Made by a program: the position numbers and the translations under genes. Under the pieces are notes generated by a model. The model saw nothing but the letters and a program-made list of their open reading frames with translations. It was not told the DNA's origin and did no database searches. A stretch of DNA of 64,000 nucleotides, taken from positions 29,579,001 through 29,643,000 of the forward strand of contig NC_072807.1 of the NCBI RefSeq assembly GCF_028583425.1, written 5' to 3'. The DNA comes from Eublepharis macularius. Its lineage: Eukaryota > Chordata > Lepidosauria > Squamata > Eublepharidae. Shown here piece after piece: positions 567 to 62,385 of the stretch (position 1 is the first letter of the stretch; each line of letters opens with the position of its first letter).

Positions 567-3500
567 GTACGTTTCTGGACACCATCATTTCTTTTGCATA
601 TGTCTCCTGCCTAGATATTTGTTTTGGCCCTGGCTTGCTGTTTAAGAAAGCATCAAATTAATGGATGTTCTTTTGAACCAGAGCTAAGGCTTAAGGTAGT
701 GGTTCCATTTCCCATCAATCTCACCCTGCAGTTAAACCCGTTATTTGAAGCTTGGCCGTGCTGTGCAAGTTGCCAAGCTCTTGAATGGCTTTATGACGGA
801 TGAAGAAGCCCAGAAGAAAAACAAAATAGCAAGGATGGGAGAAGCAAGCTCAGTTAAGCACACACACACACCGCACACACACACAAGATGGGGATTATAG
901 CACAAATTATTATATGAAAGGGAGCCGTGCCATCTGAGCATAGACTGGCAAGACATGACTGACTTCAGGCAACTAGAGCTAGTTTACAATAGCTGAGAAA
1001 ATGAGTCTGAATAATGACTTTTCTTTCTACTGTTGAAATAAGTCATCAAAGAGCAGACATTCTGGCCGGTGTTTTGATCTCCAGACTTTCACTCCAGTGT
1101 CAATCGATTAGTCCTGTTCTTAACCAAGCAGTTGGGTTGCATGCTGTACAAGTAAACCTTCAGCAGCTTCAAGCTAGTCGCTATTGATCTCCAAGAGAAA
1201 CCTGTAGAGAAGACACTGAGCTTTCATTCAAGTTTAATTAGAGAATAGAAGCTCCTGTCTCCCAACACTAAGTCAGCCCCACAAAACCTATAGTTATTGG
1301 TAGGTAGGAACACATGTAGCTTTCTTAAACATAATCAGACCAGTGGTCTATCTAGCCCAGAATTATTGACTGTAGCAATTGTCCAGGGTCTCAGTTAAGG
1401 GCATTTCTCACCCTGCAGTATGTCATGGATTTGTTATCATTGCTGAACATGGTTCAGAGACAATCCCTAGCACTGCAATTGAGTTCCAAGGTTGAACTTT
1501 GGCTCCACTGAAGTCCTGAATAACAAGTAGTTTTGTTTTTAGGTAATTAGTATTGATATATTCCATCATGAAGCAGAGGCTTTGGAAAAATGTCCACTTA
1601 TGGCGCCATTGTTCTGTTGAAGGCAATGAGATTAAGCTGATTTAAGCACAAGGGCAGTAGAAGAAATGATTTCAGGACTACGGCCTAATTAATTGGGATG
1701 AAATCAAAGGATTTTTTCCCTCTCTCTGTCTCTCGAAAGCTGTTCTATCAAATTATTTGTGGAGCTGGAATAAGAAATGTCCCCCTCTCTTTTTTCATTT
1801 AGATCACTGAAAGCCAGGCCTACACGCTGGAGGATGAAGTGGCTGAAGTGCTGCAGCAGCTAATTGCTAATGAAGCAAAAGAACGAGAAAAGGCGCCTGA
1901 AAATCTTGATTACCTCCAGAGCAGAATAGACAGTAAGACCGAAGAGAAACAGGAGGAGAAAATGGTAATGCCTCTCAGCTAATCATATTGGCCCACTTAC
2001 TAAACAGAATGGCCAGGACAACCCCCCACCCTCCCCGCCACCCTTACTGTATTTTTGCTTTAGGGAATTCAGCTCCTCCACACTGAACTAATTAAAGAAG
2101 TTTTGAAGGATGATCGTTAAGACAATCTTCTGCAATATATCCCTTGAGTATTTGTAAGAAATGAAAAATTGCCTCGCTAAGGGTCCGCCTATTAGCATTC
2201 CATTTCCTGCTGCAGTGCTCTCAGTCTCAAGCAATGTATGAACGTCTGCTGCCCTTGTACATGGAGGTTCCCTTGAGCAGGCATGGGCTGATAAGAGCTG
2301 TCTTTCATTAATTTGTACAATCCCATTTGAAAGCAATGGTCCCATGAATCCAAATGGAATAAATGGGAGTGTAAGGCATTATTTTACTCTTGCTTCAGGG
2401 AAGAAAAAATAATCATAATACGGTGTGGATTCATTTCTCATTCAATTTTGGTGTGCATATTTACAATGTCCATTTTTAACATTTTGCATGGAGGTGCCAA
2501 AATATACAGATCAAGACGATACCTTGGATAACACATGGGCTTCCTCCAACCTTTTGGAAAGAAGAAATGAGCTGCCTCCCGGGGATAATTTTGAAGATCT
2601 CCAGTATTTCCCAAACTTTTATGAGCTACTGAAAAGTCTTAACTCAGGTCAGTTTCTTATTTTCAAAACCAACGTTCTTAGCTATTATTGTTATTATACG
2701 TTATTGTTATTGCTGCAGTTCTTATGTGACGGGTTGAAACATTTTTAGAACACTTGCAAATGTGTTAAAATCTCATATTTTAAAAATGTGGTCGTCTTGA
2801 TTCCCAACTTCCACTTCAACATTCTCAATGTGATGAATTTTGTATTACTGTTTTGGTGAGATAGAATCATAGAGTTGGAAGGGACCTCCAGGATCATCTA
2901 GTCCAACCCCCGGCCCAATGCAGGAAATTCACAGCTACCTCCCCCCCACACACAGTGACCCCTGCTCCATGCCCCGAAGATGGCAAAAAACCTCCAGGAT
3001 CCCTGGAGAAAATTGCTACCTGACCCCAAAGTGGCAATCAGCATTACCCTGGGAATGCATGAAAGGGCCACGAGAACCGAGCACTGATGTAACCCTTCCT
3101 GCCCTCCCTCTCATGCTCTGTGTGGGTTCACAGAGTCAGCATTGCTGTCGGATGGTCATCTAGCCTCTGCTTAAAAACCTCCAAAGAAGGAGAGCCCACC
3201 ACCTCCCGAGGAAGCCTGTTCCACTGAGATGATTCTTGTGACCGTTGGAAGAGATTATTCTTGGTTGGATACAGTATTACTTTCCTGACTTCAACACTTG
3301 GATGCGCAGGCGCCTTTCTTGTTTCGTTCCTATTTGTCCTAAGCCCTCTACACAGAAATAATAGCTCTTCAGATTTTATTATAAATATATCCCACCCTTC
3401 TCCCATATCCCTGTTCTTGTATGTCTTCAGTGGCCAGCCAGAGTGAACTGGCTGGAAGAGATTATCTCCCCTGCCCTGTTGAACCTCAGTGTGTCCAATC

Positions 3501-6500
3501 AGGGAAGTCATTAGTTTTGAGTCCCCCCAACCTCATCAGTTAACTTATTTAGGAAGTCTCTGTGATACCTCTCCAAAGAGCCTGCTTGTGGCGGCTTGCA
3601 AAATAAAACAGGCTGAGACATAAAACAGCACAAAAAAACCATTAATAAAATGATTACAACCTAGAATTAAAACTCCAGCATTAGAAACCGTTATGAGCCT
3701 ACTGTTAAAGCTGAGAAGCAGCTTCACCTCTCTCTGCTTGGATGATGGTCCCTGGCTTTGCACATGTGCCCTTTAGTCATCTTGCATTCCAGTCGTTTTC
3801 TGCATAACCGTCTCAGTGCGATGGTGGGTAGATTTCACGCAGCCGTGGCCTATGTGACGAGATGGAGAGTGGCAGAGGAACAGAAAGTCAGAGATAGGAG
3901 CAAGAAGAGCAAGAAAGGCAAAGAGGGAAGAGGGCAGTGCGTTCTGTTTTGCAGCCACCTGCATTCAGCGGCTTTGCAATTGCATTGCCTTCTGTTTGGC
4001 TTCCGGACCCAATTCAAAGTGCTTGACCTACCTCTAAAGACTCATTCAACCTGGGATCTAAGCAGTGTTTCTGTGCTAGGTGGGGCTCGAGAATTCCTTA
4101 ACAATTTGCTCTCCTTCAAGTGTGACGTGCCATTTCCTGCTGACTTCCTATCACAGATTACCCCTCTGTGACATTTTGGCATATAACAAAATGTCTGCAA
4201 GTGTATAAATGTTTTTGGGGAAAGCAGACTTTTTGTTTCTATCAGAGTGAGACCCAGGTTGTTTGACACAGCGTTGGGTGGGGTATAAGATACAACAAGT
4301 CGAGTGCCACTGGTTTAGAGCATTGGTCTTCAGCTGCGAGGTCAAACAGGACATTTGTGGGTTCCTCCTGTTTGGTTGGAAACCTCCCTATGGGTGTAGG
4401 CTCTGTGCTGATGTTACACTGGATGGACATAGATGGGGTGGGGCCAACAGGAATGATCCCACTCCCCCGATGTCTTATGTATACAGGACATGAAAGAGAG
4501 TGACCAGAGACAAATGAAGGACAAGCTTTCTGTACTTTTACTAATTGTGCAAGAGAACCAATTTGATGGAAATGTTTTTTTAAAAAAAGCTGAGGGTATT
4601 CTGAAAATCACTTAGCTCATAAGAAAGAATAAGAGCCCCGTGGCGCAGAGTGGTAAGCTGCAGTACTGCAGCCCAAGCTCTGCTCATGAGGCACGACCTG
4701 AGTTCGATCCTGACGGAAGCTCAAGGTTGACTCAGCCTTCCATCCTTCCGAGGTCGGTAAAATGAGTACCCAGTTTCCTGGGGGTAAAGTGTAGATGACT
4801 GGGGAAGGCAATGGCAAAGCACCTTGTAACAAAAAGTCTGCCAAGAAAAAGTCATGATGCGATGTCCCTCATGGGTCAGTAATGACTCGGTGCTTGCACC
4901 TTTACCTTTTATCATTAGAAAGAAGCTTTGAAAAAAGGCCACATTTACATTAATCTCATTGCTGAAGACCTTAGAGCCCCTCTCAGCAATACAAAGCAGA
5001 TGCTCTTTTATAGCATGGAACATATACATGATTGACTAATCTTTTGTGTAGGCCACACTGGATATCATTAGACAGGAAGGCAGGATATACATTTTTTTAA
5101 TCAATATATTGAATTCCTTCCTTCTGAGCATGGCCTCATCCTGTTCCTTCCTTTCAAATCAATCATGTGCATATTTATGCTCATGCTCTGTTCCTTAACC
5201 TAGAGAAAGAAGCTAAGGAAAAAGAAACATTGATAACTATAATGAAGACCTTAATTGACTTCGTGAAGATGATGGTTAAATATGGAACCATTACGCCTGA
5301 AGAAGGTGTTTCATACCTGGGTAAGTGTGCATTTAGAACCTTTTGTTGTTCCTCTTATGGCATGAATATGGGTAATTATATTGTCATCTTATTCCACTGC
5401 AAGGTAGTTTGTGTCAAAGCAATGATTTTTTGTGTGTGTGACAAGTTATTTTAAACCATACTGAACTGCATTGTTTCATGATTTTAGGTTTTGTAATTTG
5501 AAGCAATTTCAATCATTCTAAGAACACTGACAGCCATAAATTGCGAGCCAGTTGGGGGTGGGTTGGGAGTAATTTGGAACTGAGATCTTCCGGTTTCGAT
5601 CTGGTGTATAGCTCCTGTTGAAAAGGAGGGAGCCACAGGTACGCTGGGCATTCCTAAGCTCTCTTCTAGCGAAGAAACTAGTTTGAGTGGCATGTAGCTT
5701 TTGTCTGCTTTATGGTTTTAATTTTGTTGAATGGTTGGTTTCTGTTTTTGTGCTTTTCATGTTGTTGATATTTTTATTGCATTATCATATTTGATGTTTA
5801 AATTTTCCGTCAGCCACTATGAGAGCCTTTTGTGAGGTGGTGAGTGGGATAAAATTTTTAGTGGAACTGAATATACAGGAGAAGATCCCCACTGGGGTCA
5901 GACCAAAGGTCCAGCATTCTGTTTCCATCACTGGCTAGCCAGAGACTTCTGGGGAAATTGACAAGCTTTGTTTGCTTTTGGCATCCAGTATGAAGAAATA
6001 TACTGTATCTGACAGTACTGGAATTCCCATCTTCTAAACAGTCAGGTTCCTAACCATGTCTTGAGGCAAATACTAGCAAGTTGAAACTCAGGGCTCCATT
6101 TGACATAAATGAAACTTGATTGCTGCTTTTAATACTGCCGTGTGTATTATCAGCAGTGACCTGCTTTTCCCCCCATTGACAACCTCCCCATAACCACAAT
6201 AGTTGAAAAAAAGATTCGAATTTAAGACTACCCTTTGGAATGTTCAGGCAGTTTGATTCTTCATTGAGTATGACCCGCTAGGATAAGCTTTAAGAGCCCT
6301 TTCTCTAAGCAGTCACGAAGAAATGCCAAGATCTGAAGTTATTCAACCATCTCCTCTGTGGTTTCTGTAAGGAATGAAGAGCAAACTGGCTGAAATCCAG
6401 GGAAGCACGGCAGAGTGCTTGTTTCCTCCCCTAAAGCTCTCGCCCTTCACCATGCTATATCACAAGGCAGTTTTAAAACCTGGGGGTGTCCAAAGTAATT

Positions 6501-9500
6501 GGTCATATAGCCTCAGGGAAGAAGCCTGCTGTCTTGGAAGGGGGGGTGTAGAATGAAAGTCCTGCTACGTGCACACAAGCAATGCCATATTCTTCAGTGA
6601 TATTACTTGATTGTAACCAGTTTAGAATATTATCTTGGAGATAGTGTGAACGTATCTTCCAGGTTAAAAAAAACATCAGAAACCCCACCTTAAGTAATGA
6701 CGTACCTTGAACAATACAGGATGCTTTGCAAATAATCCATGGGGGACACCCCCACAAAGGATTCTAATTGGTTTATTGTGTCATGAGGTTTTGTACACAA
6801 GAGTCTGTTTCTTCAGCTACCTGAAGTATGTCCTCTGTTGGCATATATGTTTACAGAGTATGTGGGGGGAGAATTGTCAAAAGTCAGAATGCAATGATAT
6901 GTAAGAGATTGAATCTGTGACGTTGCTATGAAAAGCTTATTATGTATTCAGAACGAGAACAGCGATCATTCACAATGGCAAGAACATATTACATATTCTC
7001 TCTAGAATGATGCAGAGAAGTTAGCCGTGTTAGTCTGTGGTAGCAAAATCAAAAAGAGTCCAGTAGCACCTTTAAGACTAACCAATTTTATTTTAGCATA
7101 AGCTTTCGAGAATCAAGTTCTCTTCGTCAGATGCCTGATACAGAGACTGGTCAAACACAGAAGAGCAGAGGGAAGAGGCAATTAGGGGGGGAGGGGGAGG
7201 GAGCAATCAAAACATTCCTTTGCTAGTATATGTAAACATCTCCTTTTGGTGTGTGTATCAGTTGGCTTCAAAGGAGTTTGCCCTGTTAGTTTGTAGAAGC
7301 CAAACAGCTAGACCATCCAATTCCAATGCAGTATGGGCCTTCAATAACCACAGCTCTCCCTGCCAGATGCATCTGACAAAGAGATCTGTGGTTCCCGAAA
7401 GCCCACGCCAGGTACCACTGAGCTCCCCCAGACCCCACCTCTGTAAAGGAAATCTGTTACCTGTGGTAATGTGATAACCATTCATAGTCCCTATTCAGTC
7501 CCAGCTTGACAGAGTCAAATTTGCATATGAATTCCAGTTCAGCAGCCTCCCGTTGGATTTTGTTTTTGAAAGGTTTCTGTTGAACTACAGTGACCTTTAA
7601 GTCTTTGATGGAATGTCCTGGTAGATTGAAGTGTTCTCCCACTGGTTTCTGGACGTTTCCATTTCTAATGTCAGATTTGTGTCCATTTATTCTTTTGCAC
7701 AGAGGTTGGCTGGTTTGTCCAATGTACAGAGCAGAAGGACATTGTTGGCACATGAGGGCATATATCAGATTGGAGGATGAGCAGCTGTAAGAGCCAGAGA
7801 CAGTGTAGTTGATGCCATTGGGTCCTGTAATTGTATTCCCTGGGTAGATATAGGGGCAGAGCTGGCATCTGGGTCTGTTGCAGGGCCTGGTACCTGTGCT
7901 GGTGACTCTGCTGGCCGATTCATGGTTGTGAGTGAGAAGTCGTTTAAGGTTGGGGGGCTGTCTGTAGGCAAGGAAAGGTCTTCCACCCAGGGCTTCTGAG
8001 AGAGAGGTATCATTTTCCAGGATGGGTTGTAGCTCACTGATGATACGTTGGATGGGTTTGAGCTGGGAGCTATAGGTGACAAGCAGTGGTGTTCTGTTGT
8101 TAGTTCCTTTAGGTTTGTCCTGGAGTAGGCTGTTTCTGGGTACTAGTCTGGCCCTGTTGATTTGTTTCTTCACTTCATTTGGTGGGTACTGTAGTCCCAA
8201 AAATGCTTGTTGTAAATCTCTTAAGTGTGAGTCTCCCATCATTGTTATTTCTCCCATCATTTGGACCCATGGGAAGGAAGCTCTTGAGAGATTTCATCAA
8301 GACTTCAATAACTTTCACCCTACTATCAACCTAAGCCTGGACCACTCTACACAACAGGTACACTTCCTGGACACCACTGTACAACTACATAATGGACGAA
8401 TAAATACCACTTTATACCGGAAACCAACAGACCGATACTCATATCTACATGCCTCCAGCTACCACCCTAAACATACCACTCGGTCTATTGTCTACAGCCA
8501 AGCCTTACGTTACAACCGTATCTGCTCCAATGCTCTCGACCGAGACTCACACTTAAGAGATTTACAACAAGCATTTTTGGGACTACAGTACCCACCAAAT
8601 GAAGTGAAGAAACAAATCAACAGGGCCAGACTAGTACCCAGAAACAGCCTACTCCAGGACAAACCTAAAGGAACTAACAACAGAACACCACTGCTTGTCA
8701 CCTATAGCTCCCAGCTCAAACCCATCCAACATATCATCAGTGAGCTACAACCCATCCTGGAAAATGATACCTCTCTCTCAGAAGCCCTGGGTGGAAGACC
8801 TTTCCTTGCCTACAGACAGCCCCCCAACCTTAAACGACTTCTCACTCACAACCATGAATCGGCCAGCAGAGTCACCAGCACAGGTACCAGGCCCTGCAAC
8901 AGACCCAGATGCCAGCTCTGCCCCTATATCTACCCAGGGAATACAATTACAGGACCCAATGGCATCAACTACACTGTCTCTGGCTCTTACAGCTGCTCAT
9001 CCTCCAATCTGATATATGCCCTCATGTGCCAACAATGTCCTTCTGCTCTGTACATTGGACAAACCAGCCAACCTCTGCGCAAAAGAATAAATGGACACAA
9101 ATCTGACATTAGAAATGGAAACGTCCAGAAACCAGTGGGAGAACATTTCAATCTACCAGGACATTCCACCAAAGACTTAAAGGTCGCTGTGGTTCAACAG
9201 AAACCTTTCAAAAACAAAATCCAACGGGAGGCTGCTGAACTGGAATTCATATGCAAATTTGACTCTGTCAAGCTGGGACTGAATAGGGACTATGAATGGT
9301 TATCACATTACCACAGGTAACAGATTTCCTTTACAGAGGTGGGGTCTGGGGGAGCTCAGTGGTACCTGGCGTGGGCTTTCGGGAACCACAGATCTCTTTG
9401 TCAGATGCATCTGGCAGGGAGAGCTGTGGTTATTGAAGGCCCATACTGCATTGGAATTGGATGGTCTAGCTGTTTGGCTTCTACAAACTAACAGGGCAAA

Positions 9501-12500
9501 CTCCTTTGAAGCCAACTGATACACACACCAAAAGGAGATGTTTACATATACTAGCAAAGGAATGTTTTGATTGCTCCCTCCCCCTCCCCCCCTAATTGCC
9601 TCTTCCCTCTGCTCTTCTGTGTTTGACCAGTCTCTGTATCAGGCATCTGACGAAGAGAACTTGATTCTCGAAAGCTTATGCTAAAATAAAATTGGTTAGT
9701 CTTAAAGGTGCTACTGGACTCTTTTTGATTTCTTTAGAATGAGAAAATTTTGTCTCTGTTCGAACTTAGGTGAACGCAGTCAAAACTTTCTCCTGAGTTC
9801 TTGCTTATAGTCTCACTCTTTTAAGAAGAAATAACCTTACCAACTCCCTATCAATTCCTCTTGCCATTACCCTTTTGATTTGCCCATTGGCATCCGTTTG
9901 ATCTTTGACATGAAGCTTTCAAGTGCATTCAAAATGAATAAACCCAGCTGGCTCCATACACGTAAGGGCATTTCATCCCTGTCGCCTTCTTTGGTTAACT
10001 TGAGTTTAGTTTTGCTTATGTCAGGTCCACCTCCTGGCCAGACAAATAATCTGTGAGTCACAACAGCACCAGCAGTGACATTCTGATCTGTAAATATCAT
10101 TCTGAATTATAGGATCCTGATGAAAATATTGATTGTTTGTCATTTTCACTTCTGTGATACAAGGTTTCTAAACAGGGCTAGAATCTTTTTCACTGCAAAA
10201 TATCCCTTACTTCTTCATAAAGCTCTCAGCATCTATCCAGGAATGGTAATCATTAGCAATTCAAGTCAATGACCTTTGAAACTAGGCTGTTTTAAAGCCA
10301 TTTATCGCCCTAGGAGGGCTCAGCAGTTTGGTGCAGAGGATACCATCTACAACACAGCCACTGATCTAATTATAATCCCTAATGGGGTTTGATTAATATG
10401 AATGAGATTAAAAGGACGGCAGATGGAGAGGATGAGCCATCGCCCATTCATTCTATGAAGGATTCCTTGTTTTAAAATATAATTCTAATACTAACTCCCT
10501 TATCCCCAAATATATACTTCTTATATGCACAAAAATCACATAATACGAAGTATGTGTGTTATAAGGCAAAAAATTGGTGAGATTTTAAACGGGGAATGCG
10601 GAAAGATGAGTAACTTAGAAGGAAGATTTAAAATATGTAGAGAGAAAGGTGCCTGTACATACTCTGGGTGATTCCTCTCCTTTTGAGCTCTTGGGTACAT
10701 TGGATGAACAGTAGCTGAATCACCCCTCCCATAAGCCACCCACTCCTGGCCCCCTCAGGGATGGCTGGAGTAGCGGTCTTTTGGGAAGCACTGGGACATG
10801 GTTCTTAGAGATGTGATACTCCATTCACATCACGGAGCGTCAGAGTAATCCATGGGTGAACATGAACATGTAAACAATTCCCAGTGGAATTTTAGCCACA
10901 GATGTGACCTGGCTCCCTACCAACAGGTTGTTATGCTCCGGGAAGCAACAGAGAGATAAATTCCATCGATGCCAGCCGTACTAGGAAGCATTTTCTCATA
11001 CGCTTCAAGCTGCTTTGTTGGTGACCTATTTTTAGTCTCACTGTTGAGAAACAGCTTTCTTTCTGACCTTCAAATACTGATCTCATATTCTCAAGAATCT
11101 TAAGAAACCATGAGAACATTAATTTAAATAGAATGATCATGGAAGAAGCAATTGTGCTTTGTTGTCAGTACTCTTATTATTTGTGAAATCGTTTAACGCA
11201 TGCAGTACTATGGAGTATCGAGGGCTGTTTGGTAGTGCTGGGTCAGAAGAATCACACATAGCACTTTGAATAAATGGCCCCTGATTGGGTTTTTTTTAAT
11301 TAAGTCATAAAAGTAAATTATTTTCCATCCCTTCTTGTAACAATGTGTAAGATGTTTAGAGCCACCTTCCATTGATTTTGACAAAATTCCAGAATAATTG
11401 CTGGCTTTAAAACAGTTGCCTCAAAATACCTCCTGCCCCCTTTTTTAAAGAGATGAAATGACAAGCCTGACTTATGCATTCAAAACAATAAATCGTTTAC
11501 TAAATCAAATCACATGCTTTGAGCTGTTTCGGCAATCTATAGAGACAGTGAGTTTAAAAGCACATCTCGGTAACAGCTGGTCTGGGATTTGAAGATCCCA
11601 CATTATGTCATCGTTGTAGGATCTTGCTCCGAGGGAAGAGTCCTGTAGCATTGCTCACTGAATGATGCTATTACATCTCACAGTAAACCACACAGTATTT
11701 ATCTTCAGTATCCAGGGCCAGATGAAAGGATAGCAGGAGCTGTTTGTGGAATCGTACTCTGGCCCCTGAACCATTCAGATCGGAATCATATCCTTGTGTC
11801 CTAATCTTTGCTTTCTTAACTGATAGCACTCACAAGAAAAATCCAGGCGCTTCAGCCATGCCCATATGCAAGCTCATAAGACCTTACTGTTATCCCTCCC
11901 CTGTAAGAGTCACCTGCTTATGCCCACTCTACCAGTAATCAAAATTTTCCTCCAGCTGGGAATGTGGCTTCTGTTGTTGTATTTTGTGACAAAGACAAAG
12001 ACAAGCGTCTATGTTCTGAATTCCTAAAAACTCTCAAGAATCCCAGTGCAGAGAGCAAGAGACAAAGCTGTTTTATAGCGGCAACACTATTGGTCCATCT
12101 AGCTTTATCTGTGTCGTAACATTCTGTAGTTGGGTGCTCAAACACAACACGGAAGCTTCTGGGCATAACAAACCCATCAAAGTTTCCTTTATGCAGTGGT
12201 ATGGTGGGTAGAAGGTTGAACTTGGACCAAGGTGCCTTGAGTTCAGGCTGCTGACCATGAAACCTCCAAGTGTTGGATGAAACAGAGATTGTGAATGGCC
12301 ACACACCCCAATCTATACTTCCTTGAACAAGGCTCTGGAGACCACTCTTCCTATCAATACAAAGCCTAGTCAATCTAACCAATCCTCAAACTTCACTGTG
12401 CTTGCTAGTCATGGTGCCTGTCTGTTATACTTCCTTTTCCCTTCTGCACCTGGAAAGGTCTTTGAAACCTGAGCCCATACAGTCCTGACTGTCCCAACTA

Positions 12501-24500: not shown

Positions 24501-27500
24501 CCAAATCACTGAGACAGGCTCATGCAGTTTTATGAGGCAACTAACTCATAAATGCATCATATTTTATTGTGCAATTTTCATCCTTTTTAATTTGACCCTG
24601 TGGAACGGCCTGCCTGAGGAGGTCAGGAGAGCCCCCACTCTCCTAGCTTTCCGCAAATGATGCAAAACCGAATTATTCAAAAAGGTTTTTGTATTGTAGG
24701 GAAGGGATCTCAAGTGCTTCGCTAATGAGTTCGGGACTGTAGACTTCACCACTATGTTGCCTTACATACTATCTGTTGTTATAAATCTGTGTTCCTATGA
24801 TATACCTGTGCTTCATGATGTCTAATATCAGCCCTAGAATTGTTTATGTTCTGTTTCAGCATTTCTTCAACTCTGTATTGGATTCTTACTAACGCTATGT
24901 CTTTGTAAACTTGTGTTTATTTACTCTATGGCATTGTTGATGGAAATGTCCTTGAAATTGGACTGTACTATTCTCACACTGTGTAATCTGTCTTGAATCT
25001 TGAGTGAGAAAGGCAGACTATAAATGACATACATGCATACGTTCATACGGGTATACGTGCATACATACATGCATACATAAGACAGACATATGGGTAAACC
25101 AGAGAAGAATATGGTTGTAGCGTGGATGCATATACCACATACTAATCTTCTATGCTCTTTATTCAAATATTCCCTGGCTGCTGGAACTCAATTCACTTGT
25201 TCCTCAAATTACCGTCTCTGGATGAGATGAGACATGCAGAGATGGGAATAGGGAGCTTTCCAGGAGGCTAATAGCTCTTGTCTTATCTGACAAAATTTGA
25301 GCATGTTACATCCACGATGCTCTCACAAACTTGAAAGTCTTTTCAAAGCCATTAAACTATTATATTACTCCAGGGACCTTGTTAAGTTAGCTTTGAACTA
25401 ATTTTGTCTTGGTTGCCCCATTGGCAAAACTGGCTCTCTCTCATTTAGCATTTAAAACACAATGAATAATATGGGCAATAGAACAATAATTATAATGATA
25501 ATAATAAAACATTTTTCCACTTGGAAAAGATGGCCATGTACATTTCGGCTTGTAGGGCTGAAGCAGACATGAGGAAAATCACAGATCTCTGTCAGTATCT
25601 AAAAGGTAAACTGCACTCACACAGCTACAATTTAGTTTTAAAAAAATAGCATGACACACTCTCACATTATATAACTTGGAGCGGGGCACAATTACCTTGA
25701 AATTAATCTAGGAAAATGGACAGAGAAAGGGTTGGGTTCAATTTCAGTTACTCCTGGGAGTATTGTATTCTTTTGTTGGAAGCTGCTTTGAACTTTGGAG
25801 AGGAAAATATGAATGTTTAAAATAAACACTGGGGTGGATCCAACCGGCTTTTACATCCAATCTCACCCAACTCTGCTCTTTCCTACAACCGTGTCTCACA
25901 TGGATTTTGTCCATGCATGTCCTGTGAGGATCCCCTCCTCCCCAGCACAACCTTTTTGGGCAATTAAAGGGGATCCTTTCTCCCTTTTTCATCAGCAGAA
26001 GAGTTGGCTGGATCCACCCCATTCCCAATAGTAATAACGACTGCAATTCTAGGGAAGGATAGAACCCAGCTATGCTTCAAAGTGGACTCTTCCTTACTAA
26101 TTTAGCATGTAACAACTGCTAGTTTTTTCCATTAAACTAAGACTAATGTTAGGTTTAATTAAAACATTGTGTCTTAACAAAGCTGTATACTACGAATTGC
26201 TGATACACTGATTCTTTTTGCTTTTCAAGGGAAAGCAGAAGCATACTTGGAAGCCATCAGAAGGAACATTGAATGGCTGAAGAAACACAACAAGCAAGGA
26301 AACAAAGAAGGTAAATTTGTGAAAACTGAGGGTGTGAGATGTGTTACAGTCATCTTGGAGTTTGGCTTCATAGCCTGAAGCGTTGAGCAAAAGAGTGGCG
26401 CAAAAGAGAAAGACAATAGTATAGTCTTGGGTAGTTAGCTGTTTTGGTCTATAGTGGATAAGCAAGACTTGAGTCCAGTGGCACCTTAGAGACCAACAAG
26501 ATTTTCAGAGTGTAAGCTTTCAAGAGTCAAATTTCCCTTCTCCAGATAACTTCTTCATAGCATAGGTGTCATTTGACCATCTTTGTGAAGAGTGTCCCAT
26601 GAAGAGGAGGGGGAGCATCACAGAGATAGCTCTATCACCACCACCTACCTTCTGAAGGATGAGTTACCCAGAAAAGGACCATCTGAAGATGTTCGCCAAG
26701 GACAGGCAGGTTCATATGGGAGCTGTTGGGGAAGAAGCAAACAACAGCATTTGATCAATGAGGGGGAATCGGAAATTAAGCTAAATTACAAGAAACGGGA
26801 CAAGACATGTTGCTGACAAGGTCGTGAGTTATGTACTTATTTATACCCCGCCTTCTCCCCAATGGGGACACAAAGAGGTTTACATAATTCTCCATTTTAT
26901 CATCACAACAACCCTGTGAGGTAGGTTAGGCTGAGAGGGTGTGGCTAGCCCCAGGTCACCCAGCAAGCTTCCATGGAAAAGTGAGGATTTGAACCAGGGT
27001 CTCCCGGATCCTAGCCTGATGCTCTAACTGCTACACCAGTCGAGCTCTGGAATCAGTCCCAAGAAAATTCTACATTTGTTAATGTTATTCGCAGCAGATC
27101 AGGAAGATATTACTGGTTTTTGCTAATGGGCTCATTATTACACTTTCCTCCAGAACTTAACAAGGTTAATACACTTTGCCTATTAATTAGCAGAGCCCAA
27201 GGAAACATATTTTCATGATTACCCATAATATGCAAATTTGTGACAACCTTCCCACTTATATTAGCCCACTTCATCTGGGAGATGATACCAAATGCCAAAA
27301 TGAACATTAAGGAAATGACATGAAGATTTAGCTTGCATATTTAATTCAGATAAGTTAACGGAGCGATTGGAGAATGTCCTCATTATCCAGGAAGGGGGTT
27401 ACAGCAGCTTTGTCGTTATCATCGGGTTTGCAGATATATTCACAATGAGCTGATTTGCAGGGCAGTCCTAGAGATTCTGGAGTCCCAAGCAAGGCTCAAG

Positions 27501-31561: not shown

Positions 31562-31774
31562 GACACATACTAGCAAAGGAATGTTTGGGTTGCCTCCCCG
31601 CTAATTGCATCCTGTCCCCTTGTGATATATGTCCCCTTCTTTCTCCCCTCTCTCCCCTCCTCTTCTGTATTTGACCAGTTCGGATCATGCATCTGACGAA
31701 GAGAACTTGATTCTCGAAAGCTTATGCTACAATAAAATTGGTTAGTCTTAAAGGTGCTACTGGACTCTTTTTGA
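31562..31774 (+). mobile_element. Solo 3' end of the same Penelope-like family
   Basis: It matches the right arm from about 9543 to 9731 (tactagcaaaggaatgtt..., gaccagt..., ctactggactctttttgat) with moderate divergence and small indels. There is no coding sequence. It carries its own CTGACGA...GAAA motif (31693-31699, 31716-31719). It lies between the 3' ends of SCG3 and LYSMD2. Confidence 0.75.
31686..31731 (+). ncRNA. Hammerhead-ribozyme-like motif in solo Penelope end
   Basis: CTGACGA, stem II GAGAA/TTCTC, GAAA and AGC-TTAT-GCT are all conserved relative to the copy at 9640-9686, although the surrounding sequence has diverged. Confidence 0.5.
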
Positions 31775-34700
31775 TCTAGGAAGGATGCACCGTAAAAATG
31801 ATGTCAACAAGTGTAATGGGACAGGGAGGTAAAGGGAAGCGATGATAGATGAGTTCATGGGCAATAGAGGGAGCAACAGAGAAGGGAAGTGAGAGGGCAG
31901 CAAAGGAGGAAGTTTGCCATTGATGGAAAGATTTACAGGATGCCAGGGTAAAGACAGAAGTGTGGGGGGGAGTGACTGAGAGCAGAACGAGCCAAAACTA
32001 TGCCAGGAAATGGTTAAAGAAAATCTAAGGTTGACAACAGCTTCAGAAATTACTTGCTCAAAGTTAAGAGGACAGAGGGAGAGATGGGGGTAAAAGGAGG
32101 GGCTTTTAGAGGATGTGGAGAACGGAGAGAGCAAGAATGAGAGAGAAGATGTCTTAAGTTTCACACTACAGCCTTAGAGATATGCTTTCAGAAGACACCC
32201 CCCCCCATTTAAACTGTCATAATGTCCAGAGAACCCCCTTGCATTGTGTATCTTTAGAAAGTACATTTTGTGTGAATCGCAGACAGCAACAAGGAACGCT
32301 ACCTTTTTAAATAGTTAGATTACCGTAACATGAAAAACTATGGGTTCGGTGTCCTCTGCTTTATTAAGTGAGCACCACAGAACATGGGCGCAATTGGCAT
32401 GTTAGGCGGCCTCAATTGCATCTATACTGTCAGTAATTTGAGTTGACAGAGCAAATAGGAACAGCCTAATCCATCACCCTGCACTGCAGAAGAGCTATAG
32501 CTTGTGCTCAATGAGGGCTCCAGGGAGTGATCTCAGTTATTATAATTAGCACTGCAGATGCCTACGATGCTGCTTTACAGCATACTGTCAGTAGTATGTT
32601 TCTGCAATCACAGCAGTTGAGGGCAATTTGTAGATATTATTTCGCCAGTATTTTCCCTATTGCTGATGGGGGGGGGAGCTATCCTGCATCTCTCTGGTTC
32701 TAATCCCACCAAATATTCCCTCTGTCTTTTTTTACATTCTCTGTGTCTTTTAGATGCTTCAAGATGTCTTCACAATTATAAAAAATGCTAAAAATGTTAA
32801 CAACATAGACTACATTCACAACACACTTTTCTAATGGAATCCTGTTTCTGATACTGTACTTTATTAAATGCTTTGCTACAAGACACTGTTGTGCAGGTTT
32901 TTGTTCCTTCTTTTGCACTTGTTGCCTCCTTAAAGGTTGTGATTTTTCTGCAAAGTCTTTGAGAATGGTAAGGGGCTCGCTGCACAAAGTGAGACTTTTA
33001 TTTGTGATGCATTTGAAATCCATTCCTACTGGCTTCAGGATGGCACTAAGAACACAAATGCCGTATCTGTCAAAAATTACACATAACTAAGGAACGTTGT
33101 CAACAGCCTTCCTCTCTCAAGCAATCACTCTTATGAAGGTTCAGAATTTTACTAGCATTTCAGAATTTTACAAAAATCCAGGTTTGCAATTTAGCAAAAT
33201 CCTTTTGTTGTCATATTTGTACATATATCTTTAAGTATCAATAACAGATTTAAGATATACTATCTCAGGAAAAGGAAAAAGACATCTCTCTGCAATGTAA
33301 TGGGCTTTCATTTTTAAAAAGGAAAGCTGGGAATTCAGAGATCCTGCTACGCCTTGCATTACAATGTTGGGTCAGTTTATTATCAATATGAAATTGACAA
33401 TTAGAACAAGGAAGGGGGGAAAGGATGGCAGGGGAGGAGTGGCACGATGACGACGAACGTCCGGTCATCAAAGTGAGTTGGAGGGGGTTGGGAATAGGTG
33501 GGATAAAAATCCCCAAAGAAACATTGTCCACAAGTTAAAAATTGATTCAGTTGGCTTCCAGAAAAAGATCAGGGTAAAAGTGGTCTCAAAAGACGCAAAG
33601 CAAAAAAGAGGAAAACAAACAAAACAAAAACACTTGAAGCGAAAATTAAAGGCCAAAAATGCACGTGAGACTCACGGGATACATCAAAGTAGTATGGGGC
33701 CAGAAACGCCTGTGCGGAAAATTCCATTGTCACAACATTGGATTTGAATTTTAACCTAAACTTCAGAACTACAAGCAGACACCGAGTACTTCAAGCTGCA
33801 ATGATAAGGAGTATCTTATTATTACCTTGAGCGTGGTTGGAACTATAGCAAATTGGATAGAGCTATCATGGCCAATAGTGAAAAGATAATTTTCGTTAAT
33901 TTGTTTAAACCTTCTAAGCCAGTGGATGCTGTATCTTGTAGCAGTGGATGCTGTAAATTAATTAAATTACATGCTGGATGAGGAAGCACTTTTTGCGTCT
34001 GCTTTACCCAGTCGATTTATGAGACAGGAAGAAAAGTTCTATCATTTGCTTTTGCTATTCAGTCCTTAAAATCTCTCTGAAGTTCCCCCTAGTCCTTTTT
34101 TCTAAAGTCGAAAGCACCAAATGCTTCAAGACTTTTCTTGTAGAGGTGTGCTCATCTGTACATTGTTTAGCCAGCCCCTTTCCTGCTCCCCTTTTAGACG
34201 GGGCAATTTTAGAGAGTAAAATTTTGAAGCCAGCTGCACCATCGATCACCGTAAAGGCATTACGTTGACTGTATTTTTGTACTTCCCCCGGCTCTTGAGT
34301 AGCACAGTACTCACCACAACTCAAGATGTCTTTTTATTTGCAGACCTTTCACTTATAGGACCCACAATGACTTCTTAAGCGGTGCATAGCTTTACCTGTT
34401 CTACAAAAACAGCAAGAGCTTTGAGAGAATGCAGCTCATGTTCTTACCCCAACATTAAATGAACTTCCTTCAGTTCTGCAAATCAGAGTATGTATAATAT
34501 TAACAGCACAGAGAAATCTGTTTAAGCCTCAGGAGGAATTTCCCAAGAGTCAAGCTACTAACCTAATTTGGAAAATTGAGGCTAAACTACCACAAGATAC
34601 TTTTATCTTTCTTGTAAACTACAAAAATTGCACACACTCCAGTCACAGTCTTTGATGCTCTATTAACTTCCGTGGAATAGTCAAGAATATGCTTAACTCT

Positions 34701-47331: not shown

Positions 47332-47832
47332 GCAACAAAATTGGAGTCCAGTGGCACCTTAGAGACCGACAAGATTTTCAGAGTATAAAGCTTTCCAGAG
47401 TCAAAGCGCCTCTTTTCAAATGCCTGAAGAATATTTGAAGAAGAGATTTCTGAGTCGTGAAAGCTTACACCCTGGAAATCTTGAGTTCAGTGGCATCTTA
47501 GAGACCAATAAGATTATCAGGGTATAAGCTTTAGAGAGTCAAAGTTCCCTTCTTCAGGTACCTTCTTCAGATATCTGAAGAAAGGAGCTCTGACTCTCAA
47601 AAGCTTACATCCTGGAAATCTTGAGTCCAATGGCACCCATTTTACAGACCAACAAGATTTCCTCAGTATAAACTTTAGAGAGTCAAAGCTCCCTTCTTCA
47701 GATATTTCTTTGTATCTGACCACGGGAGCTTTGGCTCTTGAAAGCTTATGCCCTGAAAAACTTATTGGTCTCTAAGGCACCACTAGACTCCAATCCTGCT
47801 GTTCTACTGCAAACCAACACAGCTACCTACCT
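47332..47832. mobile_element. Alternating inverted array of Penelope-type tail modules
   Basis: Modules of a second Penelope-tail family alternate in orientation: - (about 47340-47415), + (47437-47486), - (47487-47560), + (47570-47628), - (47629-47705), + (47711-47832). The + modules read ctgaagaa/ctgaccac-ggagct-ctctcgaaagctta-like and end in ggaaatcttgag or, in the last, the full tail ctaaggcaccactagactcc to ctacctacctgaa. The - modules are their complements. Only the last module has the complete 3' tail. Confidence 0.7.
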
Positions 47833-49055: not shown

Positions 49056-50418
49056 ATTAATAAACAATAAAGCCAACCCCCAAGGCACTGTTTAGAAACT
49101 TTGGAAAAGATGAATCTCCCCAGGGAAAGATTCCAGTCTTGGTGCTTGAGAAGGCCCTCTCTTTGTGGCTACCATTGAATACCAGGCACTTCTGACAATT
49201 GTAATGAGTAAGTGGCTTTATATGGGTTCATATGCCATTAAGTATCCTGCGCCTAACCATTTCTTAACTTTGAATGAGTCCCAGAAACAAACTGGTAGAC
49301 AGCAAATTGACATAGTACGGTCTATAGGGCAGGTCTCAGCTGTAAATGGAGCTGTAGAAGCTGCAATGGAATGGCTTGTCCTCTGATTTTAAGCCATGCA
49401 CATATTTCTGAGTTGTAAATTCTCATACCTCAATTTCAGCTGGAAAATTTGCATTTAAACTGGTGCTGCTGTGCAAAGTACAAATTGGCAAGTAACACAC
49501 CTGATTCCACGAGTACACACAATAAATGAGTTTGCATGTTTACTCAGAAGTATGTCTGAGGGCAGTGGGACTTACTAGTAAGAATGCATAAGATTGTAGT
49601 CTTAATGAAAATAGAAAACTAGAAATTAGGAAAAATCCAGAAAATATATCTTCTGTCTTAAAAATATGAATCTTATTTTGTGCACAGATCTTGAATGTCC
49701 ATATCTTGAATAAAAATTATTCAGTTGCTTTGCTGAGCCAGAAAGTGCCCTTGGAGACCCATCTTTTCAGCTTCCCAGAAAGTGCTTAGAAAGAATATCC
49801 CTGTGACCATCACACACACATTTTAAAAGATGCTGACCTTGTAATTTCCTAGTAGTACACTGAAGAATTCACATTGCTCGTGTTACTGTTGTGTTTCAGA
49901 CTATGTCTAGACTGGTAGTTAGTTTTAATAACCAGCATGCATCATACTCCTACGTTCCTTATGTTGCAAAATTTCAGCCTAGCTATTTGAGTCCAGCACT
50001 CTTGCTGTGCTGTCTTTCTGTTCTGATCCCAGCAAACAGCTATATGACTTCTAGCCATTACAGAGATGGTTAAAAGTAAATGGGTAGCCTGTCTAGTAGT
50101 GAGCAATAAAAGCAAGCAGTGCAGTCCTGTCACAAGTTTATGCAATCTGAACAGGTTCAAATCCAAGTCCCCTTGTATACACCAGCTTAAAGAAGTTGGG
50201 CTAGCATGTGAGGTCACAGAAACCCCGTTGCCTTCAAACCACAAACATGGCCTATCTGAGCAACAATGGAGAGAGAGCAACCAACTGTTAGTATGTAGGT
50301 TGCCCCTTTTTCATCCCAGGGCTCTTGTGTCTTTTCAAAAATACGTGGCAGATAAAAGCATACCAGGAATGTGTTGCTATCTAGTGTGAAGTTGGGGAAA
50401 GCTGCTGTAGTCAAGTGA

Positions 50419-50545
50419 GAGCAAGATTCAAGTCCAGTAGCACCTTAAAGATTAACAAGATTTCCAGGATATAAGCTTTCAAGAGTCAAAGCTCCCTTTG
50501 TCAGATAAAAGCAAGTTGCTACTGGACTCAGATCTTTCTAGTCAA
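50419..50545. mobile_element. Inverted pair of Penelope-type tail fragments
   Basis: A - strand module (caagtccagtagcacctta ... ataagctttcaagagtcaaa ... tttgtcagat) is followed directly by a short + strand piece (aagttgctactggactcag). This is another small head-to-head arrangement of the family. Confidence 0.55.
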
Positions 50546-55799: not shown

Positions 55800-56776
55800 A
55801 ACAGTGTGTGCACACTTTGCACCTTCGTGTGAAGACTCAGACATGAGTGCCAGGTTCCTCCTCTCCTGCTGGGAGAGTAAGGGAACCTGGCAACCCTACT
55901 CCCCATGTATATTTTTAGAATTCAGATTTTTCTGCAAACCTGGGGAGCCCTGTGGCCTCTGATTCAAGAGCTTTAGGAGGTCTCACATGACCCAGCCCAT
56001 ATATTTTCTGCTGCTCGCTATGCTAAAAGAATGTTTGAATTGGATTAAAGGGTGCTTCACCCTGAGGCATCTGAAGACTGACAGAGCATGCTGTGTAGGT
56101 TAGTTAATAATTTGTTTCCTGAAAAACATGTACTTGGAACTAAGCTGCAAGTCCATGCTGGAAATCTGAGAAATTTTGCTTGGTCTCAGCAGGGTCACCT
56201 ATCAGGATTTATTTGTATCATCCTAAAGGCTCCATCTGAATGCCTGTCTGGATGTGTATGCTTACAAAAAGAGGGAACTGGGTGGATCATTAGGAATGTA
56301 CTTTCCTGACTAACTGATGTGGTGCCTGGCAGCCAATAAAAATCTGAATCTCATCTGGAGCTTAACATTGGGATCTTGTTTACATTATCAGGGCCTGCTG
56401 CCCAAAGTTCTTAAGGGGAGTGTTAGTTCAGATTTGAAGTCCTAAATCAAACTCAACGACATACTAGTTGTCTTTCCATTCTTGGATACTAAGGTACTCT
56501 TGCAGTGTATTCAGAAAGCCATCAACATTTGCAGTCAGGGAATAATTAACATGGTATTACTTATACCTCATACTGAGAGTCTCTCTGCCCAAGATGCCTC
56601 GGCATATGTTCGTCAAATGTGGGGAGACGCAATGTTAGCTAGGAAGTGTAGTTTTAAAAGACACAGCCAATGGCGATGGCTCCTCAGAGGGTTTGTTAAT
56701 TTCATCTTCACCTACCCAAAGACTCTGTCAATTTCACATCTCCAGTCTAAAACAACTGTCATTCAACCCTGATTTA

Positions 56777-56978
56777 GAGCCAAGCTACAAGTGACGCCTG
56801 ACACAGATTGGACACTTGTCAGCTTCCCTCAAGTTTTGATGGGAAATGTAGGCATCCTGGTCTTGCAGCTGTAATGGAGAGCCAAGCTGTAAAACCAGGA
56901 CGCCTACACTTCCCATCCAAACTTGAGGTAAGCTGACAAGTGTCCAACCTGTGTAAGGCGTCACTTGTAGCTTGGCTC
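56777..56978. mobile_element. Harbinger-type hairpin MITE
   Basis: It is a long imperfect palindrome beginning GAGCCAAGCTACAAGTGACG and ending with its complement, with arms of about 90 bp and a short centre. TTA on both sides (56774-56776, 56979-56981) fits a PIF/Harbinger target duplication. Confidence 0.65.
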
Positions 56979-56981
56979 TTA

Positions 56982-62287: not shown

Positions 62288-62385
62288 GTATCTGGCAAAG
62301 GGAGCTTGACTCAAAAGTTTATACCCTGGATATCTTATTGGTCTTAAAGGTACTATGGGATTTGAATCTTGCTCTTTTGCTAGTC
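62288..62385 (+). mobile_element. Penelope-type 3' tail fragment
   Basis: It reads gggagcttgactcaaaagtt, then ataccctggatatcttattg and gtcttaaaggtactatggga, matching the tail family with about 15-20 percent visible divergence. Confidence 0.5.

Follow-up and report, generated by a model that had tools for sequence, protein, structure and literature searches.

The window analysed here, 64,000 nucleotides of the Eublepharis macularius assembly GCF_028583425.1 (contig NC_072807.1, positions 29,579,001 to 29,643,000 of the forward strand), contains a palindrome that is a recent insertion of a Penelope-type retroelement, with two arms lying head to head. This two-armed inverted layout is the ordinary form of this Penelope-like element (PLE) family in this genome, shared by 22 of 31 sampled insertions. 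In each complete case one outer end carries a short 3' extension, the tail, and the other does not. The consistent pairing of unlike ends points to copying of element RNA by each of the cut DNA strands, from two neighbouring start points. We consider it probable (about 0.8) that the young insertion arose by dual target-primed reverse transcription, each nicked strand yielding its own complementary DNA (cDNA) from one of the two start sites and the cDNA ends then being joined. The preliminary description of this DNA had set the palindrome apart from known Penelope copies; its frequency among sampled copies, and the inverted layouts already published for PLEs, show it not to be exceptional.

Aligned base by base, the window arms (7046-8235 and 8542-9731) are alike at all but 6 of 1,190 nt, without indels, confirming the 1.2-kb inverted duplication first described. 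We placed them on L028, a longer copy that served as ruler for all reference positions: the arms abut at their 5' truncations, and the 3' ends of the element lie at both outer ends, as had been proposed. The left arm has about 36 nt of extra outward sequence; the right arm has no tail and extends inward by a stretch of its own (8255-8541). The filler at the inner joint leaves TCTCCCATCATT present twice (at 8232 and 8250), and thus looks copied locally. One target duplication surrounds both arms, in agreement with the single integration event initially suggested; it measures 11 bp with one mismatch and not, as then reported, a perfect 10 bp. When left and right flanks were mismatched, 3 of the 1,056 pairings also reached its score of 9 and none exceeded it, so that taken alone the duplication is good but not overwhelming evidence. 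No second target duplication was seen at the inner joint. A genome search with the flanks of the insertion matched only the locus itself: the flanks are single-copy, with no paralogous empty site.

The preliminary description had called for a search for other tail-out copies with their target duplications, which the present assembly (2.24 Gb, 72 contigs) supplied. A query containing the tail returned many related copies at 99-100% identity (best 40 of 2,052 candidates). Twenty further copies from this search were examined; L010, L013 and L014 (unclear) and L028 (single-armed) were left out of that sample. Since the query included the tail, the sample favours tailed copies, and the search was repeated with 311 bases that stop short of the tail. 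The best-scoring 40 of 1,632 candidates then represent 31 distinct insertions, a sample that leans towards young copies in which one arm or both exceed 311 bp. It comprises 22 complete two-armed insertions with a target duplication, two single-armed (L046, L048), two unclear (L033, L057) and five unfinished ones, which show an untailed end (L032, L036, L045, L049) or a tailed end (L065). All 22 are head to head and enclosed by one target duplication. L055/L056 and L064/L069 were each counted as a single insertion on account of matching flanks, their interiors being only partly read. Five copies from the tail-biased sample bring the two-armed insertions to 27, of which 26 (21 of the 22, and the five) had their flanks scored. 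The 25 other than the window score 11-17 on the same scale; some outer ends were set by hand after flank inspection, which may lift the scores slightly, and the mismatched pairs were scored with those same ends. In the 27th, L064/L069, the duplication GGTTTCTATTG was judged by eye, outside the scoring. As the 27 insertions differ in lengths, joints and duplications and are spread over 13 contigs, an assembly artefact at the window locus is unlikely.

All 22 complete two-armed insertions pair a tailed with an untailed end, as do all 27 once the five extra copies are counted. Over these 27, the tailed outer end lies at reference ~3242-3250 and the untailed one at ~3201-3215, or further in (~3160-3167) in L023 and L037. 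Under a free and equal choice of site by each strand, 21 mixed pairs out of 21 have p ~1e-6. The exact tail sequence has 629 matches genome-wide; among 100 of these listed, two close opposite pairs seemed by eye to be tail-tail insertions. Both were rejected, one tail of each continuing into the open reading frame and being an internal 5' pseudo-long terminal repeat (pLTR), not an end. A 25-mer near the PLE 3' end has 30,154 exact matches, but setting the 629 tails against these gives no interpretable genome-wide ratio of tailed to untailed ends, as the two patterns are unequal in length and cover different ranges of age.

Most arm pairs, though perhaps not all, share a source. The test covers 24 of the 27 insertions (L020, L035 and L064 were omitted). 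Of 45 cases of a minor allele that occurs in two or more insertions, 26 have it in both arms, against 10.8% in shuffled pairs. For non-CpG alleles the figure is 19 of 29, against 9.3% (maximum of 2,000 shuffles 28.6%); CpG-type alleles alone are less clear (7 of 16; shuffles mean 14.3%, maximum 45.5%). At least one variant, pair-private ones included, is shared in 18 of the 24 pairs. The window arms have five in common, two of which (2172 and 2555) are absent from every other copy read. L058 and L050, whose arms differ in identity to the reference, were considered as two-template cases and withdrawn after direct alignment, which revealed gaps in a pyrimidine tract; the L058 arms share a variant (3202) found in no other copy read, and on its upstream side the tailed arm of L058 runs on into another pLTR, which is more diverged.

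Out of 18 inner joints read, the unclear copy L010 included, 12 overlap by 1-4 nt, six hold 1-19 nt of filler and none is blunt; a simple random model makes 56% of unfilled joints blunt, so that 0 of 12 has p ~5e-5. Arm lengths, compared in 23 of the 27 insertions (L055, L058, L063 and L064 left out), show no relation (Spearman 0.26, p 0.24). In 10 of these the tailed arm exceeds the untailed one, in 12 it is the shorter and in one the two are equal, L025 moving to the first class if a further 5' piece is counted. The inner ends differ in 22 of the 23; in L059 they are equal, and the joint is the palindrome GAATTC. Separately, several arms are mosaic near the inner joint: L020 (3235-3315), L015 (3183-3693), L025 (3746-4159), L026 (2356-2505) and L058 (1822-2574) have lost internal sequence or hold small inverted segments or pLTRs in tandem, a pattern that suggests jumps of the polymerase. 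L070 (C1:217593701-217594200) contains about 350 bases unlike the PLE reference within an apparent single arm, so that this copy is composite.

We infer the following order of events. The element endonuclease would nick both target strands with a stagger of ~11 bp, and each free 3' end would prime a separate cDNA close to the 3' terminus of the element, both start sites presumably lying on RNA from a single source locus. The cDNA begun at the downstream site would include the tail; the other, begun ~36-40 nt upstream, would lack it. Both would halt early, at independent points; their 3' ends would then anneal and unite head to head via a few bases of microhomology or a short filler, and fill-in would finish both second strands and the target duplication. 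Several observations weigh against this reading. Three single-armed copies have a target duplication of their own (L028, and the untailed L046 and L048), and 5 of the 31 sampled insertions are unfinished. Six of the 24 pairs share no variant; among these, L009, L021 and L026 each show three discordant sites and L025 a single one. In 19 discordant cases, those of the window pair at 2664 and 2669 included, the odd allele is known elsewhere. Discordant sites may reflect recurrent mutation, template change or different templates. Lastly, PMC11167929 found in vitro no difference in start site between top and bottom strand, and the strict pairing of sites is not reproduced there.

Dual priming could draw on one RNA molecule or on two. 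It is conceivable, and we hold it tentatively as something rather short of probable, that a single RNA molecule serves both nicked strands, each start site being used once, one per primer; insertions that lie head to head and pair a tailed with an untailed end would then be the normal PLE product, cDNA-end joining replacing a separate second-strand step. Strict use of one site each, together with the variants private to the window and L058 pairs, is simplest with one RNA and leans that way. Only a little under an even chance, in our estimate, is the variant in which each nicked strand copies its own RNA, held in a dimeric protein-RNA particle whose halves start at different sites. Shared pair-private variants would also arise from two transcripts of one locus, and a protein dimer is predicted with AlphaFold2 in PMC11167929. 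The unrelated arm lengths, with the tailed arm often the longer, come easily with two templates and, along with the few pairs that have discordant variants, lean towards two transcripts. A single-file model, with two polymerases on one RNA and the tailed arm always the shorter, fails on the 10 of 23 longer tailed arms unless one polymerase displaces the other's product. The dimeric template invoked in the preliminary description is not required; its other proposal, second-strand synthesis primed on a second RNA, comes close to the dual priming favoured here, be it on one RNA or on two.

Other routes to a palindrome fare less well. If the first cDNA or an antisense transcript folded back and copied itself into the second arm, the joint of L059 would be readily understood, and self-priming on an antisense template is what PMC3846280 proposes for head-to-head copies with palindromic joints. 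Fold-back predicts identical outer ends, yet all 27 two-armed insertions pair a tailed with an untailed end, and unequal inner ends are nearly universal; the difference between outer ends argues against such copying as the general route, and we regard it as quite unlikely. Long interspersed nuclear element (LINE)-style twin priming on one RNA, where internal priming by the second strand leaves the 5' part inverted, would share with our insertions a single duplication, two primers and microhomology at the inner joint. Twin priming inverts a segment without duplicating it. The window has 1,190 bp doubled and L015 ~1.6 kb, and a 3' end of the element stands on each outer side; simple twin priming was rightly judged inadequate at the outset, and we find it very improbable. 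A pair of independent insertions, or an inversion-duplication that followed a single one, appears equally hard to credit. PLE copies are so many, to judge by the 25-mer, that neighbours do occur, but one target duplication encloses both arms in 27 insertions. Moreover, among the first 100 of the 25-mer matches listed, which contain apparent segmental duplicates, neighbours less than 4 kb apart lie head to head in 23 cases, tail to tail in three and the same way in two, with ~5 expected at random. Spacings of 113, 737, 2768 and ~3095 bases recur between PLE ends in the first 9 Mb of contig C1, and suggest segmental duplicates.

Judged from its sequence, the coding part of the window insertion is a canonical, endonuclease-bearing PLE, the identity first put forward. 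Its truncated arms yielded the GIY-YIG domain only, while L028 holds in one frame both RVT_1 (8.2e-11, 42.4 bits) and GIY-YIG (1.2e-4, 22.7 bits, cut-off 22.6). L028 also has a pLTR, a repeat of its 3' end sequence ahead of the open reading frame (positions 2303-2408 repeating 5446-5551 at 98%), which the truncated window copy lacks. Further PLE traits are the inverted copy at the other end, the short target duplication and the tail on one side. Hammerhead ribozymes have a core of the form CTGANGA-N16-GAAA (CUGANGA ... GAAA in RNA). This pattern has three matches across the window, against 0.26 expected, and occurs in both arms, in keeping with the hammerhead-like ends described earlier; no Rfam hammerhead match was found in the whole window (gathering threshold) or in 9560-9760 (E up to 10), so that the cores are putative. 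The tail folds no better than its shuffles (z 0.22).

Table 1. Features of the two-armed PLE insertion (window positions; reference positions are those of copy L028).
Feature	Position	Strand	Remarks
Target duplication, left copy, CTCTAGAATGA	7000..7010		base 7010 possibly the first tail base instead
Left (tailed) arm	7011..8235	-	reference 3245 to 2020
Tail (3' extension), left arm only	7011..7045	-	reference ~3210-3245
Hammerhead-like core, left arm	7104..7130	-	pattern match; without Rfam confirmation
GIY-YIG endonuclease domain, left arm	7544..7768	-	PF01541, E 1.6e-4, 22.4 bits, just below curated cut-off 22.6
Filler of 19 nt, inner joint	8236..8254		matches neither arm at that place
Right (untailed) arm	8255..9731	+	reference 1733 to 3209
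GIY-YIG endonuclease domain, right arm	9009..9221	+	PF01541, E 4.7e-5, 24.1 bits, over cut-off
Hammerhead-like core, right arm	9647..9673	+	pattern match; without Rfam confirmation
Target duplication, right copy, CTTTAGAATGA	9732..9742		10/11 identical to left copy

Elsewhere in the window, 31563-31775 (+) is an older single piece of the same PLE family. It matches reference 3078-3207 at 92%, has no tail at its 3' end and carries the same hammerhead-like core at 31693-31719. Related, more diverged repeats, several of them inverted, lie at 47336-47831, 26433-26557, 50418-50508 and 62289-62375 and are probably older remains of PLE ends; 47340-47794 is a self inverted repeat (71%). The 204-bp near-perfect palindrome at 56776-56979 (87%) has no match to the PLE reference.

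The inverted architecture itself is already in print for PLEs; what is added here is a quantitative rule on the pairing of ends. PMC3846280 describes PLEs of Adineta vaga with inverted pLTRs, duplications of 8-10 bp and a 31-bp tail on one inverted pLTR, and suggests self-priming on antisense RNA; inverted pLTRs and short 3' extensions are also mentioned in PMC8969392. The Pen2a_Av-type elements of the former have low copy numbers and mostly a short inverted pLTR, unlike the very many recent copies found here, whose inverted arms run from 60 nt to kilobases and are often both deeply 5'-truncated. Also comparable is Poseidon of Anolis carolinensis. In PMC11167929, its purified protein cleaves and extends both target strands, with internal initiation at two adjacent sites that delimit the tail, on AT-rich targets without homology to the RNA; these traits agree with the present insertions. 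It differs in showing no strand difference between the sites in vitro, whereas in the insertions read here each of the two sites is used by one end. The literature searched, outside which some key PLE papers lie, yielded no statement of a strict tailed/untailed pairing.

Twin-primed LINE insertions resemble those described here in that both target strands prime on element RNA within one target duplication; they differ in that the inversion brings no duplication and that just one of the outer ends is a 3' end. For the completion of PLE insertion, PMC11167929 describes the later steps as yet to be validated, and a small sample of the E. macularius genome offers no fewer than 22 two-armed insertions that are complete and recent. 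The rule of ends, exceptionless among the insertions read, combined with the mostly shared source of paired arms, makes of the 'optional tail' a claim, open to test, on how two DNA strands use one RNA source.

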